A stretch of DNA of 27,429 bases from a virus: IMG/VR virus record IMGVR_UViG_3300025131_000331, positions 1 to 27,429 of that record. One strand, 5' to 3'. The notes under the pieces were generated by a model that made no database searches, was not told the DNA's origin, and was given only the letters and a program-made list of their open reading frames with translations. A program made the position numbers and the translations under genes. Position 1 is the stretch's first letter; the number at the start of each line of letters is the position of its first letter. This document shows, piece by piece, positions 1 through 13,999 of this stretch.

Positions 1-159
1 TACTGAACAAATCAGATATCCAATCACACATATCAAACTTTTTTAAGGCTTAATATTTGGATACCTGATTGCCCAATCATAATTGTTATTATTATGTGTT
101 CATTTTGGGACTTGTTCACTGTATTTCGTTAATTTCGTATTAACTGGAAATGGTAACGT

Positions 160-176
160 CATTGATATTATCAATG
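160..176. repeat. Perfect inverted repeat CATTGATA-T-TATCAATG
   Basis: Two 8-base arms (160-167 and 169-176) are perfect reverse complements around one central base. The symmetry suits binding by a dimeric protein, or it may be the left edge of the foldable segment that follows. No gene is adjacent, so an operator role is only a possibility. Confidence 0.45.
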
Positions 177-231
177 GAATAACTGTTTGGGTACGTTAGT
201 ACCTGCTCGAATATCAGGTTTGGATAGCCTC

Positions 232-256
232 ACCCTAGTCGCTACGTAGTAACTAG
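232..256. repeat. CTAGT/ACTAG palindromic repeat, copy 1
   Basis: CTAGT (235-239) and ACTAG (252-256) flank the perfect 8-base palindrome CTACGTAG (242-249). The segment 232-248 (ACCCTAGTCGCTACGTA) returns at 1333-1349 with two differences. Its reverse complement resembles 1520-1535. Related palindromes lie at 517-534, 1520-1530 and 1717-1727. Confidence 0.45.
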
Positions 257-602
257 TTTTCAATTCTCAAGTTATTAACCTAGAGCCTTTCAACTCTACA
301 GCTTAGACAGTATGCTTTTATAAGTAGTTTCATATACTTTGCTTAATCCGTTCCTTATGGTTAAAGGTTTGAGGGATACTTGACCACTATGCTCTTACTA
401 GCATATCGCCCTGACTGTCTTGCCGATTGAACCTTGTACCTAATCACTATTGATAGTGCCTATTAGACAGTGTACTGTTGGTGGTCTGGAGATAGTCTGC
501 CCTATCCCCTTCATAATTACTAGATTCCTAGTAAGAATCTCATAATCTGACGTATTTATAATATGATGATTAGTCATGATTTGGTACAGTCTTACAATCT
601 AG

Positions 603-630
603 GTCTTAGCTATCTAAGACAATATTTTTA
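603..630 (+). terminator. Possible intrinsic terminator
   Basis: GTCTTAG (603-609), loop CTAT and CTAAGAC (614-620) form a perfect 7-bp stem followed by AATATTTTTA. The shape is terminator-like, but the stem is not GC-rich and the T run is broken. It could instead be an internal helix of the candidate structured RNA. Confidence 0.3.
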
Positions 631-660
631 GCCATCATTGGCAAACTTGGGTAGTGCTTA

Positions 661-875
661 AATTATAAGAATTTAATCTATGTTGTTTTTTTACTTTTTA
701 TGAGTTGGATTTTAGTTTTACTAATCTCTCATGTTCATTTATTTCCTGTTGGTACTTAGGTTACTAAGTCTAAGTCCCTCGAGTTATTTATTTAATCTCC
801 CTTAATAGATTTATTTATTTGATATCCAAAGATTACATCAGTTAAATAATTAACACAATAGATAATCCTTAAAAA
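661..875. other. AT-rich stretch without recognisable features
   Basis: No gene, RNA or clear repeat is seen here. A run of seven T lies at about 684-690. Confidence 0.5.
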
Positions 876-917
876 TAGGGTAAAAAAGACCTGTTTTTTG
901 GCTATTTTGATACCCTA
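876..917. repeat. Nested inverted repeat with A6/T6 inner arms
   Basis: TAGGGTA (876-882) and TACCCTA (911-917) are reverse complements. Inside lies a second pair, AAAAAA (882-887) and TTTTTT (894-899), around GACCTG. The A/T tracts would bend the DNA. The function is unknown. Confidence 0.5.
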
Positions 918-927
918 AAATATCATT

Positions 928-947
928 ATCGTGACTAATCGTGACTA
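928..947. repeat. Perfect 10-bp tandem duplication ATCGTGACTA
   Basis: ATCGTGACTA occurs twice in immediate succession (928-937, 938-947), eleven bases after the nested inverted repeat at 876-917. It might be a pair of protein sites one helical turn apart. Confidence 0.55.
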
Positions 948-995
948 CATAAAAAAATTCAAATATTAGGATTGAAGGATTTTCAGGCACGAATT

Positions 996-1070
996 TTCTT
1001 TGCTGGTAGAATTTTATTTGATAGATTTTAAAGGGTTAGCTAGTCACAAAGTTAATTCTTTGCTGGTAGA
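996..1070. repeat. 15-bp direct repeat TTCTTTGCTGGTAGA, 60-bp offset
   Basis: The identical 15-mer lies at 996-1010 and 1056-1070, both in AT-rich surroundings. TAGATTTTAAA also occurs at about 1022 and 1067. An exact 15-base match in a gene-free region is unlikely by chance, and it fits an old tandem duplication or spaced binding sites. Confidence 0.6.
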
Positions 1071-1104
1071 TTTTAAAAACTGCTTGAAAAATAGCATATT
1101 TGAG

Positions 1105-1349: not shown

Positions 1350-1460
1350 TATATAAATATATGCCCATAGCACCATATATAAAAAGATGTATATAAATAT
1401 ATATGTATATGGATATATGCCCCTATTAACCTATTGATATATATGTATATGCTTATATGA
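1350..1460. other. Very AT-rich block with ATATAAATATAT repeats
   Basis: The block is mostly alternating A and T. ATATAAATATAT occurs at 1351-1362 and 1391-1402, and ATATATGCCC at 1357-1366 and 1413-1422. Such DNA melts easily and could be a DNA-unwinding element next to the TCTGG array. No gene is seen. Confidence 0.45.
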
Positions 1461-1500
1461 ATATATGGAACATGGTTTTGGCGAGGGAATTAATCGCACG

Positions 1501-1572
1501 AAGACCCCCCACTACTAACCTAGTAACTAGTAGCGACAGGTACTGGTTGCTGGTTAGGAGGGGGTGGGTCTT
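1501..1572. repeat. Large imperfect inverted repeat
   Basis: The arm 1501-1520 (starts AAGACCC, ends CTAACC) is nearly the reverse complement of 1552-1572 (starts GGTTAG, ends GGGTCTT). The outer 7 bp and inner 6 bp are perfect. The loop carries the palindrome CTAGTAACTAG (1520-1530). The arms are strikingly GC-rich for this region. A reading frame runs through it (1457-1720), but its composition follows the repeat and I do not regard it as a gene. Confidence 0.55.
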
Positions 1573-1638
1573 GTCTTTGGGGGGCAGCATCGGAGTATAC
1601 CCTTATACATTTAATTTCTATAAAAGAGGAGGTATAGT

Positions 1639-2556: not shown

Positions 2557-3030
2557 ATGGCTAGTAACGCTGTCCCTGATATGCCAGGGAATAATCCTGA
2601 AGCTATTAAAGCTAGACAAGATTTATTTCTCGAAGCATTTGAAGAATTAGGTACGATTACACACGCATGTAAGAAGACTGGTATAGATAGAAGTACGTAC
2701 AAACGATGGAAACGAGATGATAAGTTTGATTTTGTTACCAGATTTAATGACGTTAAAGATGATTTCGCAGAAGAAATAGAACAAACTCTGTTTCAAAGAG
2801 CTAAAGACCCTAAATCTAACCCCGTTATTTTAATATTTGCACTCAAAGGTCTACTACCTGATAAGTATAAAGACAATGCACAGGTAAATGACGAGACTGC
2901 TAAAGATATTATGAAAGAACTTAAAACTAAATTTAGAGGTATTAAGTTTGATGAAAGCGAAACGTCTGATACTAAAACAGCACAACAACAAGCAGAAGAT
3001 ATCCTAAGAGGCAAAAGTGGAGAAAAATAA
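2557..3030 (+). CDS. terS: Terminase small subunit (putative)
   Basis: This is a 157-residue protein with a helix-turn-helix at about residues 31-53 (ITHACKKTGIDRSTYKRW), of the kind found in small terminase subunits of the phBC6A51 or homeodomain-like type. A helical, acidic middle region follows (AEEIEQTLFQRAKD), then a KGLLPDKY motif that is frequent in these proteins. The C-terminal third is charged and probably flexible or contacts the large subunit. The small subunit recognises the packaging start on viral DNA and loads the large subunit. The gene for the large subunit overlaps its 3' end, which strongly supports the call. The ribosome site is AGGTAGG, and the length is normal. Confidence 0.8.
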   Translation: MASNAVPDMPGNNPEAIKARQDLFLEAFEELGTITHACKKTGIDRSTYKRWKRDDKFDFVTRFNDVKDDFAEEIEQTLFQRAKDPKSNPVILIFALKGLLPDKYKDNAQVNDETAKDIMKELKTKFRGIKFDESETSDTKTAQQQAEDILRGKSGEK

Positions 3031-4378
3031 CAGCAACGCACCTGTTAATGAACTAGCTGATTTTATTTATGAAAAAGTAGATTTTAAACCAACTTCCTTA
3101 CAATCACCGATACTGAAGTCTAGAAAAAGATTTATCCTGGTAGCTGGTGGTGAACAAGCTGGTAAATCTATGGTCGCTTCTAAATATCTGCTAGGTAGAT
3201 TCCTAGAAACAGAAGGACAAGGTCTGTTCTGGCTAGTTGCTGCCGACTATGAACGTACCAGAGCTGAGTTTGAATACCTAGTACAAGACTTCGCTACACT
3301 AGGACTACTAAAAGAATCAACTAAAAGAGTAGACCCAGGTAGAATTGTACTCGCAGACGGCACAAGAATAGAAACAAAGTCTGCTAAAGACCCAAGAACA
3401 CTAGCTATGAGAGCACCTAATGGCATCATTGGTTGCGAAGCATCACAGCTAGACCTAGAAACTTTCCACAGATTGCGTGGTAGATGTGCTCCAAAGAAAG
3501 GTTGGATGTTTTTAGCAGGTACTTTTGAAGGCTCACTAGGTTGGTATCCACAAATGTACCAGTCATGGCAACACTCAGCATCAATAGATGAACAAGCCTT
3601 CTCATTACCCAGCTACTCTAACCAGTATCTGTACCCAGGTGGTAGACAAGACCCAGAAATATTAGCACTTGAACGAGCTAGTTCAGATGATTTCTTTCTA
3701 GAAAGAATAGAAGGTATACCCAGCCCACCACAAGGTCTGGTATTCAATGAACTACGAGCTGACATTCATGTACGTGACGTAGAATACGAACCAGATATAC
3801 CTGTACATATATGGATAGACCCTGGTTATTCAGAAGCATACGCCTGTGAAATAGTACAAATAGTTAATGACCAAGTAAGAGTGATAGATGAAATCTATGA
3901 AAGGAATCTGGTTACAGATGAAATTATAGATATAGCACAATCAAGACCCTGGTGGAGAGATGCACAGTTCGGAGTTATTGATATCGCAGGTTATCAACAC
4001 CAAGCTATGGCTGCCCCTGCAGAAGTCTGGTTAGAACGAACTGGTATCTATTTTGACTCACAAAAAATAAGAATTAACGAAGGAACTGAAAGATTAAAGT
4101 CGTTTTTAAAGACCGACCCAGTATCTAAAACAGAACCTATGATAGTATTTAACCCAAAGTGTGAAGGAATATTGTCAGAATTCGGTGTTAAACCAAATCC
4201 CTTTGATGGACAGACTCGTTCCTATAGATGGAAGATGGACAGAGATGGTAATATTGTGGGACAAACACCTGAAGATAGATACAATCATGGTGTTAAAGCA
4301 GTAATTTACGGATTAATTAATCGTTATGGGTATGGTTATATTACCGATAATAAAACTATAAAGGTTAAACAATGGTAA
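3017..4378 (+). CDS. terL: Terminase large subunit
   Basis: This 453-residue DNA-packaging motor has an N-terminal ATPase and a C-terminal nuclease that cuts concatemers. Walker A is GGEQAGKS (residues 44-51). The Walker B/catalytic acid region is IIGCEA (137-142, acid E141), and a coupling-like motif is FLAGTFEGS (165-173). The RNase H-like nuclease begins at WIDPGYS (266-272, D268), with further acidic positions E292 and D322. The start is GTG at 3017, overlapping the small-subunit gene by 14 bases, with no in-frame ATG near it that would keep the N-terminus. The Walker B has Cys where Asp is usual, though the following Glu is kept. The length suits short-form terminases. Confidence 0.93.
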   Translation: MEKNNSNAPVNELADFIYEKVDFKPTSLQSPILKSRKRFILVAGGEQAGKSMVASKYLLGRFLETEGQGLFWLVAADYERTRAEFEYLVQDFATLGLLKESTKRVDPGRIVLADGTRIETKSAKDPRTLAMRAPNGIIGCEASQLDLETFHRLRGRCAPKKGWMFLAGTFEGSLGWYPQMYQSWQHSASIDEQAFSLPSYSNQYLYPGGRQDPEILALERASSDDFFLERIEGIPSPPQGLVFNELRADIHVRDVEYEPDIPVHIWIDPGYSEAYACEIVQIVNDQVRVIDEIYERNLVTDEIIDIAQSRPWWRDAQFGVIDIAGYQHQAMAAPAEVWLERTGIYFDSQKIRINEGTERLKSFLKTDPVSKTEPMIVFNPKCEGILSEFGVKPNPFDGQTRSYRWKMDRDGNIVGQTPEDRYNHGVKAVIYGLINRYGYGYITDNKTIKVKQW

Positions 4379-8294: not shown

Positions 8295-8645
8295 ATGGCT
8301 AATACAAACACATTTGCTGATTTTTATGACACAATGCTTGAGGCAGAACCTCAGACAGCTTTTATGGGGGCTGTAGGTAGAGAGACATTTGGTCGTTCAT
8401 TACCTGACCCCACGTTAGATAGAGCACGAGCAGGATTTAGAAATCAGTTTAGTGATGTATACAATCAGTATCTTGGTCAACGAGCTAATCAAATGAAAAG
8501 TAGAGCTGACCCTTCGCAATTAAGTACGTTTTCTAATTTCTTAGAAAAGTATCCTTTTACACAAAGATATTCGGCTATGACTCCGTATCAACGAGGAACA
8601 TCAATGAGTAGATTCTCTCCTAGTACAAGGTTTATATATTACTAA
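8295..8645 (+). CDS. Small protein of unknown function
   Basis: This is a 116-residue protein with a clean ribosome site (AAGGAG) and an ATG nine bases after the previous stop. Its stop overlaps the next start (TAATG), so it is probably coupled to the giant gene. The sequence is rich in Phe, Tyr, Arg and Ser, largely polar, with no Cys, no membrane span and no motif I recognise. Its C-terminus (STRFIYY) is aromatic. The 672-residue protein before it, the giant protein after it and this one form one block inserted between portal and scaffold, so a role in virion assembly or as an internal protein is plausible. Confidence 0.6.
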   Translation: MANTNTFADFYDTMLEAEPQTAFMGAVGRETFGRSLPDPTLDRARAGFRNQFSDVYNQYLGQRANQMKSRADPSQLSTFSNFLEKYPFTQRYSAMTPYQRGTSMSRFSPSTRFIYY

Positions 8646-11600
8646 TGCCACACATACCAGGACATCAATACACTCCTCCTAACAGGTTGTCCTTTGGTCC
8701 TACCCCACAGATACCAGGACAATCAGCACCTCCACCTATTCAAGAAGATGGAGGTTTTTGGTCTGATATTTGGAGTGATTATTTACAACCTGGATTAGAA
8801 ACTGCTGTAGGTTTACCTGGAGTTAAACAATTATTTCAAGGATTAGGAGAAATACAAAACAGAGCTGTTATTCCTACAGTTAGTAGATTAATAGAACCTT
8901 TACCAATTAGATTTGAAGAAACACCTGGTGCCCCTGAAGTTTCATGGTATGACGTACCTGGTCAATTTGGTAGAGGAGAGACAAAATGGAATTGGGACCA
9001 ATATGTTACTCCTGAAGGTAAATTTTCTCCTCAAGCAGCCTATGACCAATTAATGAATCTTAATCCTGCAAATGTTGCATTAGAAGTAATAGGAGAAAAT
9101 TTAAATAAAGACTTTGATTTATTGGAACCAGAAACAAGAAGAAGCCAGAATGTTCAAAAAGAAATAGAACGATTTGAACAAGTTAATCAAAGACCTGTTA
9201 CTCAAGTAGAACAAAGACAAATAGAAGAAGATTTATATAAGTTACCACCATATACACGAGGGATAGCTGAAGAATTACCTTGGCTTGCTTTACCACCTGC
9301 TAGAGTAGCTAGAGCTGCTACACAAACAGTACGTAAAGGAAAAGCTCTTAGTTCTGCTGGTCGATTAGGAGCTGCTGCTCCTGTAGCACGAGGGGCATTA
9401 CGTGGAGCCGAGATAGCTTTAAAACCTGTAGAAATTATTGAAACAGCTATGGCTAGAGTTATTGAAGCACCATTTAAATTAATAGGTCGAGGTGCTGACT
9501 TAACAGGTCGTGGAGTTAATAGAGTTATTAATAGAGCTCAAATACTTAACTTAAGTGAAAGGGGATTGATGGAAGGTGACAATATAATGAAAACAAATAT
9601 TGTTGACGCAGCAGGTAATTCATTAACTCCTGAACAAAAATTAATTAACATTAATGATACATTTGAAGCTAAAACAGGAATTAGTAACAGATATCGTATT
9701 GAAGAAACTTATAGTCAAAGAGTTGGAGAAGAATCAATACCTAATTATACTTTAAGAATTAATAATGATGCTGTTATTCCAGATAGAATACGTGTAAGAA
9801 CTGATGAAGAAGCTCTTAATAGACCTAAATCACCTGAAGTAGAAGCTACTAGAGAAGGTGAACAATTAGGATTTGATGAGGTTCTTGAATCCCAAAGAAG
9901 ACAAGAGTTTTTAAATAAGTTAGGTCGTGAGCCAACTGAAGTAGAAGAGTTAGCATTTAATAGACGTATGTCTGTTGAAGATGCTAAAAAAGAAATAACA
10001 GATAAAGGTGGAATACAAAGAGAATTTGATTTTGAAATTGAAACACCTATAGAAGAAATGTCTGTTAATTCTTATCAAGCATTTAAAAGATTAAATGAAT
10101 CTCCTTTTGGTCAAACTGTAGAAGGTGTTCTTAAAGGTTTAAAAAGTTCTAAGGTAGTAAAAGAATTACACAGCAAAGGTAAAAATGCAGATAAATATTT
10201 AACAGATAAACTTAATAACAGATTTCCTAATTTACCTACATGGTTTGTAGAATTTAACAATAAAAATAATGATGCTTTTTATGGATTAAAAAAGAATATT
10301 GATGATTTCCTTGACGCAAGAGGAGCTAATCCAGGTCCATATTTAAAATTATCTAGGGAAGCATTAATAAACTTTCCTACTAAATTAGGAATTAGTAGTT
10401 CTCATGCAGTTAATAGAGCTAGTAATAGAATTGAAAATGTTTACAGAAAAAAAATAATTCCTGCAATAAACAAAGGAGTTAAAGAAAACGATATTAGCAA
10501 TTTAATATTAGCACGATTTCATCTTGAAATTCTTAATGTAAAAAACGTAGATGGTACTTTAAAGTTTCCTAACAGAGCAGCACCTCAAAAATTTGAAACT
10601 GCACCTGGAGAAAACATTAATAAAGAAGTTTTAGAAGATATGGTTAATCTTAAAAGTAATCGGTATGCTGATTATGATGCTGACCAAATAAAAGCTCTTG
10701 AAGAGGCTGTAGATGGTGTTACTAATTTTTATACAGAAGCAAGAACTAAGTTATATAACAACGGCATTATAGATAAAGAAACTTATGATTATCTTCGTAC
10801 TACTTATAAACATTACAATCCAATTACTTATGTAGAATATATGGATGACTTTGCAATTGATGTTGTTCCAGGCAAAGGTAGAAATGTTGTAGACAATACT
10901 GTTAGAACATTAGATGAAAAGTATGATGGTAAATATACAACACGAAATGCTGTTGGAGAAACTTTATGGGAAAACATTATTAGGCAAGAAGTAAGAATTA
11001 TTAATAATGAAAACACACGTACCTTTGGAAGATTGTATCAAGAAAGATTAAACTTTAAAGAGGTAACTGACAACTTTATTAATAAGTCAGGGAAAAAGAA
11101 AGGACAATATAAAACAGGCAAAAGCTCTAAAAGTTTATATAATGATAAAAAGAAAACAGGATACTTTTCTTTTTATGAAGATGGTAAGCGAGTAATTATT
11201 GGTGGTGTAGATGGAGCAGAAGTTCCACGAGATGTATGGGAAACATTAAATGGTAGAGCAGGTTTAAACTTACAGTCTCCAAGTGAAATAGCACAAAAGA
11301 TAGCTATGTCTAATGGTTGGTTTAGGTCTATGTATACTACATACAATCCATTGTTTTGGACTAGAAACATGGTTATAGATGGTTTAACTGTATGGCTTAA
11401 AACAGGAACTATGCCTCACAAAGTTGGTATGGAATTAATGAAAGATTTATATTCTATAGCTACTAATAGTGAACAAAGGTTTGTTCGATTTATTGGAGAC
11501 TTAGGTGGCTGGCAAGGTGATGGTTATGTTGGAAGACAACGAACGGCTGCCTCTATTAATGCAACTATTAAAAATGCTGACCAATCACTTGGTGCCATTG

Positions 11601-13999
11601 TTGTAGATTCTGATAAAGCATTACGTAAAGTTTTAAAAGAAACTACTACAAGCACAATGAAAGATACTATTAAGAAAGTTGGTGGTGCAGTAGAAGCTGC
11701 TCCACGACACGCTGTTGGTAGAAGGGCTGCAGCTAAAGGAATAAAAGATACTTATGGAATAGATGGTGAAACAGAAATAAAAAGAATAATGAAATTGTCT
11801 GAAACAGATTATGTTGACGAAATGTTTGATAATTATAAACCTGGAGGAAAAGGTGATGGTATAGGCAAAGGATTTGCTGATACAGATATTGCTGCACGTA
11901 CAGCAACCAATACTTTAGAAGCTACATTAAACTTTAGTCGTGGTGGAGAAAGAATAAGAAGATGGAATGATTATGTTTTATTTTTAAATGCTGCTATGGA
12001 AGGTTCTAAACTTCCATTTAGAGCATTAGGTATAGATGTTAATCCTGTTATAAGACCAGTAAAAAATCCAAAACCTGGTGAAGCCTTATATGAATTTGGA
12101 AGTATATCTGAACAATTAAAAAAAGCATTAGGTAATGTTACTGCAGGAACATTAGGTAGAGGACCAGGAGCTACAGGGAGAGTTTTAGATAATGTTGCAG
12201 GGGGACCATTTCGTGTAGCTATGAGATTAGGTGGAATTGTTGGTGCATACTGGGCAATTATGGAAGGGTGGAATAAATTAGAAACATTTAATGGAACACC
12301 TTTGTACTATGATATTCCTGATTATGTACGTTACAACAGTATGATATTTATGTTGCCAGCAGACAGAGATGAAGCTGGTGATTATATTATTGACCCAATT
12401 ACAGGAAGACCTAAACCTAACTATATTGTAATACCACATAGATTAAGGGAGTGGAACTCTATATTCCAAGGAATAACTTGGTTGTCAGAAACTAGTGACG
12501 AAATGGATTCATACCAAGATAAGAAAAAATGGATGTATGAAATAGCTACATCTGCTTTTCCTATTTCTGATGTACCTTTACCTGAAATTATGACTGTAGG
12601 AGTAGAACAATTAACAGGTTATGACACTTGGAGGAAAACTCCAATAGTTTCAGAGGACTTTCAAGAAGGACCATTAAAAGACCAATACAGTAAACATACA
12701 ACAAAGACTATGAGAGAAGCAGCTGGTATATTTGATGATGTTCCTGTTCCCGAACCACTAGCTGAAATAATAGGTAGTCCTGACAGGTTAGAACATTTAT
12801 ATGAAAGTATATTTGGTGGAGTAGGTACAACTGCTACATCTATAACTGACTATGGAATAGATTTATTTAATGATTTACGAAACGAAGAACCTCGACCTAT
12901 GGAAGAACAAGTTGCTAAGTTTCGTGAAATGGATAAAACACAACGTCAAGAATATATGATGACGTTAGATGATAAAGAGCTAGAAGAATTTGAAAAAGAA
13001 CTTAGAGAACCTGAAACAGCTCTACCTTTCCTTAACAAATTAAAAGATTCTTTTTTTCCAGGAAGAGGTGGTGGATTAGAACGAACTCAAGAAGCAAGAT
13101 TAAAAGAAAAGTTTCCTAGTATATCAATTAAAGAAAGTCGAGCAGCTAGTAAAGTATTAGCTAAGACAAATCAAAAGTTAGACCTTGAACAAAAAGAAAA
13201 TGATACAAAGTTAAAAGAATGGCGAGATGGCAAAAAAGGAGTAGACGTATTTTCACCTTCTGAATGGCGTGAAGCTAGGTCTGCAAAATATGACAAGTAT
13301 CAAGGTGCGTTAATATTTGCTGGAGAAAAATATAAATATGCTATACAAGCACAAGATGAAGAAACAAAAACAAACTATTATGATTTTATGCACTCATCTG
13401 CAGGTTTAGATACTCGTACAGGAGTAGAAATATTAATATCTGGTTACAGAGCAATAAAACTTAACGAAACTCCAGATAGTGCTGACTGGGATATATATAA
13501 TCAAGCTAGGGATGAATACCTTGCAAATATTAAATTAAGGTCTGACGCTGCTAATGATGGTCTTTATGATGATTTAATTAGAAGACTTGAAGCAGGGCAA
13601 ACTCCAATTGAAAAATTATATAAAGGAGCAAGTGATTTGTTATCTGAGTATTGGAGTATAGGAAACTCTTTAGATGATTTATATCGTCAAGGATATAGTA
13701 ATAATAATCCAGAGTTAGCTAGAAAATGGCAAGAATATCTTAATGCTGATACAGGAACACAAAGTCAACTAAGACGAAATGACCAGCAAATAAACACGTT
13801 AGTTCAAAGACGTAGTGCTTTAAGAAAACTATATGTTCAAAACAGTAATCCAGATATAGATGGCACGTTAGCTTTTTGGTATGGTGATTTTTATACACCA
13901 GTAACAGAAGTTGGAAAACAAATCTTTACTAAATACTATGGTGGTCCACAAAGATTTACTAACGTACAAGGTATTGGAACTCAATTTATACCACGTTGA
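8645..13999 (+). CDS. Giant (1784 aa) putative internal/ejection virion protein
   Basis: This is the largest gene of the window. The N-terminus is Pro-rich. An Ala/Arg-rich amphipathic stretch follows (about residues 210-295, including LPWLALPPARVARAA) and could insert into membranes. Around residues 895-915 is TYNPLFWTRNMVIDG, which resembles the NPxFxxRN-type motif I associate with large polyvalent phage proteins (LPD38-like). A further Gly-rich hydrophobic segment lies near 1187-1210. The C-terminal 400 residues are charged and probably coiled-coil. No protease, glycosidase or polymerase motif was found. A long protein encoded between portal and scaffold suits an inner-core or ejection protein carried with the DNA. 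A role as tape measure is less likely given this position. It is one uninterrupted frame. Confidence 0.6.
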   Translation: MPHIPGHQYTPPNRLSFGPTPQIPGQSAPPPIQEDGGFWSDIWSDYLQPGLETAVGLPGVKQLFQGLGEIQNRAVIPTVSRLIEPLPIRFEETPGAPEVSWYDVPGQFGRGETKWNWDQYVTPEGKFSPQAAYDQLMNLNPANVALEVIGENLNKDFDLLEPETRRSQNVQKEIERFEQVNQRPVTQVEQRQIEEDLYKLPPYTRGIAEELPWLALPPARVARAATQTVRKGKALSSAGRLGAAAPVARGALRGAEIALKPVEIIETAMARVIEAPFKLIGRGADLTGRGVNRVINRAQILNLSERGLMEGDNIMKTNIVDAAGNSLTPEQKLININDTFEAKTGISNRYRIEETYSQRVGEESIPNYTLRINNDAVIPDRIRVRTDEEALNRPKSPEVEATREGEQLGFDEVLESQRRQEFLNKLGREPTEVEELAFNRRMSVEDAKKEITDKGGIQREFDFEIETPIEEMSVNSYQAFKRLNESPFGQTVEGVLKGLKSSKVVKELHSKGKNADKYLTDKLNNRFPNLPTWFVEFNNKNNDAFYGLKKNIDDFLDARGANPGPYLKLSREALINFPTKLGISSSHAVNRASNRIENVYRKKIIPAINKGVKENDISNLILARFHLEILNVKNVDGTLKFPNRAAPQKFETAPGENINKEVLEDMVNLKSNRYADYDADQIKALEEAVDGVTNFYTEARTKLYNNGIIDKETYDYLRTTYKHYNPITYVEYMDDFAIDVVPGKGRNVVDNTVRTLDEKYDGKYTTRNAVGETLWENIIRQEVRIINNENTRTFGRLYQERLNFKEVTDNFINKSGKKKGQYKTGKSSKSLYNDKKKTGYFSFYEDGKRVIIGGVDGAEVPRDVWETLNGRAGLNLQSPSEIAQKIAMSNGWFRSMYTTYNPLFWTRNMVIDGLTVWLKTGTMPHKVGMELMKDLYSIATNSEQRFVRFIGDLGGWQGDGYVGRQRTAASINATIKNADQSLGAIVVDSDKALRKVLKETTTSTMKDTIKKVGGAVEAAPRHAVGRRAAAKGIKDTYGIDGETEIKRIMKLSETDYVDEMFDNYKPGGKGDGIGKGFADTDIAARTATNTLEATLNFSRGGERIRRWNDYVLFLNAAMEGSKLPFRALGIDVNPVIRPVKNPKPGEALYEFGSISEQLKKALGNVTAGTLGRGPGATGRVLDNVAGGPFRVAMRLGGIVGAYWAIMEGWNKLETFNGTPLYYDIPDYVRYNSMIFMLPADRDEAGDYIIDPITGRPKPNYIVIPHRLREWNSIFQGITWLSETSDEMDSYQDKKKWMYEIATSAFPISDVPLPEIMTVGVEQLTGYDTWRKTPIVSEDFQEGPLKDQYSKHTTKTMREAAGIFDDVPVPEPLAEIIGSPDRLEHLYESIFGGVGTTATSITDYGIDLFNDLRNEEPRPMEEQVAKFREMDKTQRQEYMMTLDDKELEEFEKELREPETALPFLNKLKDSFFPGRGGGLERTQEARLKEKFPSISIKESRAASKVLAKTNQKLDLEQKENDTKLKEWRDGKKGVDVFSPSEWREARSAKYDKYQGALIFAGEKYKYAIQAQDEETKTNYYDFMHSSAGLDTRTGVEILISGYRAIKLNETPDSADWDIYNQARDEYLANIKLRSDAANDGLYDDLIRRLEAGQTPIEKLYKGASDLLSEYWSIGNSLDDLYRQGYSNNNPELARKWQEYLNADTGTQSQLRRNDQQINTLVQRRSALRKLYVQNSNPDIDGTLAFWYGDFYTPVTEVGKQIFTKYYGGPQRFTNVQGIGTQFIPR

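Follow-up and report, generated by a model that had tools for sequence, protein, structure and literature searches.

Conservation of a gene-free stretch in a marine phage contig

Does a stretch of phage DNA that is free of genes but rich in hairpins encode a large folded RNA, or have its hairpins come together by chance? This question is raised by the left end of a 27,429-base IMG/VR virus contig, which was analysed at its full length and is referred to here as the window. Only a small number of large structured phage RNAs have been described, and what GOLLD and ROOL do is an open question, which makes such RNAs of interest. Rightward in the window lie the terminase small and large subunit genes (2557-4378) and the gene for the major head protein (14938), and a comparison of the head protein showed that the nearest GenBank phages are mostly Pelagibacter phages, at ∼30-33% identity. 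The sequence-only reading of this locus had described positions 160-660 as a gene-free segment with a nested fold. Indeed, the ORF list contains no open reading frame of at least 50 aa that overlaps window positions 1-1099. A coding explanation was rejected, as open stretches within the RNA reach at most ∼53 codons between stops and none was obviously conserved upon inspection.

Three complete copies of the element (in the window and in contigs L162 and L169) and one partial copy (in L011) have 24 helices in common, which span window positions 4-668. L162, which is one contig with L051, is 91% identical to the window across positions 1-996, and L169 is ∼73% identical across positions 1-1100. 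Within positions 1-500, the best-kept parts of L169 are mostly 84-96% identical to the window. Lower values occur at 201-300 and 401-450, and the identity drops to 36-48% just past position 650. The L011 contig ends within the element and covers only the part from ∼475 onwards. This set of homologues is small, and it comprises two close pairs. Covariance models detected no members beyond L162, L169 and L011 among 88 distinct related phage records; of the two domain models, R1 was run on all 88 records and R2 on 50, one batch was run without a positive control, and R1 is blind to L011, from whose contig the respective domain is absent. A hit to contig L188 was judged to be due to chance, as only 21 bases match, and scans for exact short motifs returned mostly chance matches in unrelated sequence.

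Compensatory changes in the predicted helices

All stems that had been named for the nested domain between 382 and 486 are present (GACCAC 382-387/GTGGTC 481-486, 388-392/401-405, 414-420/465-471 and 445-449/454-458), and for three of the four, L162 or L169 shows compensatory changes; the remaining one, 445-449/454-458, is invariant. The covariation among homologues that had been proposed as a check was found in the structure as a whole. Specifically, 21 of its 149 base pairs, located in 12 helices, had changed on both sides and yet remained paired, as compared to 8.4 upon shuffling, and the observed covariation values were reached in none of 500 shuffles. The covariation score was 0.140 versus 0.079 for shuffled alignments, and controls in which the pairing partners were slid yielded 0-2 double-change pairs. 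Standard pairs made up 98.1% of the 149-pair structure in the four sequences versus 94.3% after shuffling, a percentage that is inflated because the structure was curated on the same four sequences.

In view of this curation bias, two less biased tests are the ones that matter. For helices from independent predictions on both strands, double changes made up 15 of the 28 variable pairs, compared to 1 of 17 and 1 of 8 when neighbouring genes were treated likewise, and the same folding pipeline returned 19-20 double-change pairs in the RNA region versus 1-5 in neighbouring genes. Furthermore, seven stacks with at least two double changes were observed, while column shuffles gave a mean of 1.07 and a maximum of 3. 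No enrichment was seen when a single double change per stack sufficed (35 observed versus 38 in column shuffles), showing that isolated double changes prove nothing. Double changes also accounted for 14 of 50 variable pairs in the non-coding region 900-1500, where the alignment is poor (56-66% identity), and we therefore leave them uninterpreted.

The folding energy of single sequences was less telling. Segment 160-660 alone gave z-scores of -1.95 on the plus strand and -1.82 on the minus strand, so that the argument from one sequence, namely that nested perfect helices arise by chance less readily than single hairpins, was weak; its conclusion was borne out by the comparative evidence, which settled the matter. 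Over positions 1-660, an excess of folding over shuffled controls was apparent, with z-scores (100 shuffles) of -3.84 on minus and -2.51 on plus for the window, -3.49 and -3.78 for L162, and -4.01 and -2.83 for L169. An earlier run with 20 shuffles had shown a larger strand difference, which shrank with 100 shuffles, and it is the latter values that stand. Hence, neither of the two computational outcomes that had been named as refuting the proposal, a lack of covariation and a lack of excess folding, was obtained. Together, these sequence comparisons indicate that the gene-free stretch of this marine phage encodes a folded RNA that is large and evolutionarily conserved. Its folding is well supported, and there is little doubt left that we are dealing with a real and conserved structured element of large size.

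Architecture of the RNA

While segment 160-660 does lie within the structured region, the RNA is longer than had been proposed, reaching at least from 4 to 668 and probably starting at ∼824, and the minus strand is favoured over the plus strand on which the helices had been drawn. All features are therefore given in the direction of the minus strand with window coordinates. The conserved core (668-4) consists of the 24 helices with 149 base pairs, as delineated by covariation, gene controls and column shuffles. A further hairpin, close to where the transcript would begin, is probable at 778-751, based on inspection of the sequence comparison for the four loci. The 5′ domain (668-592) is closed by helix 662-668/592-598, which encloses the hairpins 631-642 and 603-620; two double-change pairs each were found in the closing helix and in hairpin 631-642, and hairpin 603-620 is invariant in all four sequences. 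It is followed by a short hairpin (577-566), in which one pair varies from A-U to G-U on the minus strand, and by a variable segment (560-511). According to the alignment, this segment forms a hairpin at ∼519-536 in the window and L162; L169 and L011 have a different and longer sequence here, in which other hairpins lie. The 8-bp hairpin at 509-488 has two double-change pairs, and it contains a G-U pair on the minus strand, in line with the earlier remark that this stem folds better on that strand.

The central multibranch domain (486-382) contains four double-change pairs. Here, helix 481-486/382-387 encloses both helix 465-471/414-420, with stem-loop 445-458 inside it, and hairpin 388-405. 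Read in minus-strand letters, the pairs 482/386 and 481/387 changed from A-U to G-C and from C-G to U-A, respectively, and the pairs 401/392 and 470/415 both changed from C-G to U-A. Helix 374-377/346-349, which encloses hairpin 353-367 (377-346), has three double-change pairs. The subsequent hairpin (298-281), which in the alignment differs in stem length and sequence in L169, is the weakest helix of the model, with 77.8% of the cells in its inner part being paired. In the multibranch domain at 276-178, helix 270-276/178-184 encloses hairpins 235-256, 217-234 and 190-203. Double changes are present in the first two of these hairpins; the closing helix is invariant and thus receives no support from covariation. 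A 7-bp hairpin (176-160), which belongs to the helix set and is invariant in the covariation count, and a 6-bp hairpin (144-128) with two double-change pairs lead to the 3′ three-way junction (118-4). This junction is built from helix 112-118/4-10, an arm at 71-111 with inner hairpin 78-96, and a long arm at 11-69. Three double-change pairs were located in helix 57-69/11-23, and the remaining helices of the junction are nearly invariant.

Comparison with known RNA families

With its extensive secondary structure and covariation support, the element belongs to the general kind of large structured phage RNAs, as had been suspected. The more specific idea that it could be a GOLLD or ROOL RNA was not supported. 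GOLLD is a large multibranched phage RNA of unknown function that is also encountered in marine metagenomes, while ROOL is a large structured RNA of ∼0.6 kb from phages and prophages, likewise of unknown function, and both are often located near tRNA genes (PMC12286853). No Rfam 15 family matched the window at the gathering score, and a scan of positions 1-1500 at E-values up to 5 returned only weak matches to unrelated families, with neither GOLLD nor ROOL among them. For three homologous loci, the scan at E-values up to 1 produced only four weak sub-threshold matches to unrelated families, all in L187. The GOLLD model RF02032 gave no match at E-values up to 10 in the window and the L162, L169, L011 and L041 records. 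The ROOL model RF03087 gave no match at E-values up to 10 either, but control genomes were equally silent, which makes the Rfam scan of positions 1-1500 the better evidence on ROOL. The covariance model of a group II intron (D1D4-1, RF01998) gave no match either. No tRNA genes were detected in the window, L162, L169, L178, L011, L041 and L006, all of these contigs being incomplete. Thus, the RNA resembles GOLLD in being large, multibranched and phage-encoded, and it differs in lacking an RF02032 match and tRNA neighbours and in being placed before early genes. Likewise, it shares with ROOL that it is a large structured phage RNA, but it lacks an RF03087 match and has another genomic context. 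A literature search, the scope of which excluded most subscription papers, retrieved nothing relevant on non-coding RNA of pelagiphages. Apparently, this large phage RNA has no prior description; it combines covariation support and the absence of an Rfam match with an unusual position before early genes.

Promoters, gene order and a possible early leader

Two promoter-like sites were recognised on the minus strand upstream of the RNA by consensus and conservation. Site P2 (858-830; TTGTGT-17-TAATCT) is followed by a start box, GGATATCAAATAAATAAAT (827-809), and this arrangement recurs in all four members (window, L162, L169 and L011) as well as in L041. Site P1 (1818-1789; TTGACA-18-TATAAT) matches the consensus at 12 of 12 positions, and it was found in L162 and L169 and also in L003, L005, L006 and L009, relatives where no copy of the RNA was detected. 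The L162 and L169 contigs have this region flanked by early genes that run leftwards on one side and by late genes that run rightwards on the other; the first of the early genes, equipped with a Shine-Dalgarno sequence and an ATG, starts ∼80 nt past the RNA, and an ArdC-like gene (PF08401, PF18818) is situated further along. For L162 and L169, scans of the minus strand revealed no terminator in the stretch from the RNA to the first early gene. It is this lack of a terminator, together with the gene order, that leads to the leader model, which for the window itself rests on the relatives because its early genes would lie beyond the left contig end.

We consider it probable, judging from these sequence features, that the RNA is transcribed leftwards from P2 and P1 as the 5′ leader of an early operon, and a conserved minus-strand RNA serving as an early leader is the likely identity of the element. 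Transcription would start near 824 at the predicted P2 promoter, and probably also at P1, and the part of the transcript from 668 to 4 would adopt a fold of 24 or more helices. We infer that it would then continue into the early operon, forming a leader of ∼0.8-0.9 kb. During transcription of the early genes, such a leader could act in cis, either by promoting elongation or by protecting the early transcript. The put element is short and acts in cis. In phage HK022, the put RNA is an early-transcript leader element that suppresses pausing and termination (PMC9378689). The window RNA is far larger, and put is a possible working model for it; a position within an early leader would agree with the promoters, the gene order and the missing terminator. 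A mode of action like that of put-type antitermination or stabilising leaders, albeit at a much larger scale, is our preferred guess, and a tentative one.

The main rival to this cis-leader role is an ornate RNA that, once freed from the early transcript, would work in trans in the manner of GOLLD or ROOL, perhaps in the form of an assembly made of RNA alone. The size and multibranch architecture would suit such a role, as would the promoter-like site P2 that the RNA has to itself, the ∼80 nt that separate the structured part from the first early gene, and the precedent of GOLLD and ROOL, by which phages are known to encode such RNAs (PMC12286853). However, no terminator was found at its 3′ end, tRNA genes, which often accompany GOLLD and ROOL, were not found nearby, and homology to either family is absent, which leaves release and action in trans a possible but rather unlikely course. 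Somewhat more doubtful still is the wider proposal that the RNA represents a new class among large ornate phage RNAs and would be transcribed early in infection, beside early genes including the ArdC-like anti-restriction gene, and act in trans as an assembly or on the host machinery. Placed before early genes, the RNA can be tested directly for a part in the expression of these genes or in the takeover of the host.

Strand and nature of the element

Alternatively, the plus strand could encode the RNA, which would then precede the late genes. Supporting this idea, L162 folds about equally well on plus, a cUUCGg hairpin is present on this strand in L169 and L011, and a plus-strand promoter-like site lies inside the RNA (TAGTCA/TACAAT in the window and L169, with TATAAT in L162). 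Nevertheless, when helices were chosen irrespective of strand, 19 G-U cells fitted the minus strand and 4 the plus strand (binomial P ∼0.001, an approximate value because cells in related sequences are not independent), and the independent, overlapping helix set gave 8 versus 2. Moreover, the strongest conserved promoters sit on the minus strand. Based on these patterns, the minus strand is favoured, and a plus-strand RNA appears improbable.

A function at the level of DNA, with the hairpins forming in single-stranded or cruciform DNA of a replication origin, a packaging site or a set of binding sites, would agree with the position between the leftward and rightward gene clusters and with the repeated CACGA-type motifs alongside (∼925-1050). 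Yet, the strand bias of the G-U pairs and the nested long-range helices with compensatory changes fit RNA better, and we regard a DNA element as very improbable. Lastly, chance hairpins in an AT-rich intergenic region, with which the mere ∼2 standard deviations by which 160-660 alone outfolds its shuffles would agree, are dismissed in favour of a conserved structured RNA, as they are already contradicted by a covariation far in excess of the shuffle, slide and gene controls.

Additional observations

The motifs at 925-1050 in the window are of the type GTCACGA / GGCACGAA. Similar copies were noticed between the early and late genes of L162, L169, L011 and L003, and a replication or regulatory protein may bind to these motifs. 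In L041 (3511-4194), a P2-like site (TTGACA-17-TAATCT) with a start box precedes ∼650 nt that lack genes and contain several hairpins; a leftward gene comes next. No homology of L041 to the RNA was found, so this is a lead only, and a different leader RNA, or one that has diverged strongly, could reside in this more distant relative. The second early gene of L169 (8147-8743; 198 aa) has only two matches in IMG/VR, both on contigs that carry the RNA, and it may travel with the latter. An AT-rich inverted repeat at window positions 1401-1600 shows strong local folding (z -5.5 on plus and -4.5 on minus), as strong as that of L169 at 10460-10659. Finally, positions 8645-13999 of the window encode a protein of 1784 aa in which an LPD38 domain (PF18857; large polyvalent protein associated domain) was recognised at an E-value of 1.7e-15.
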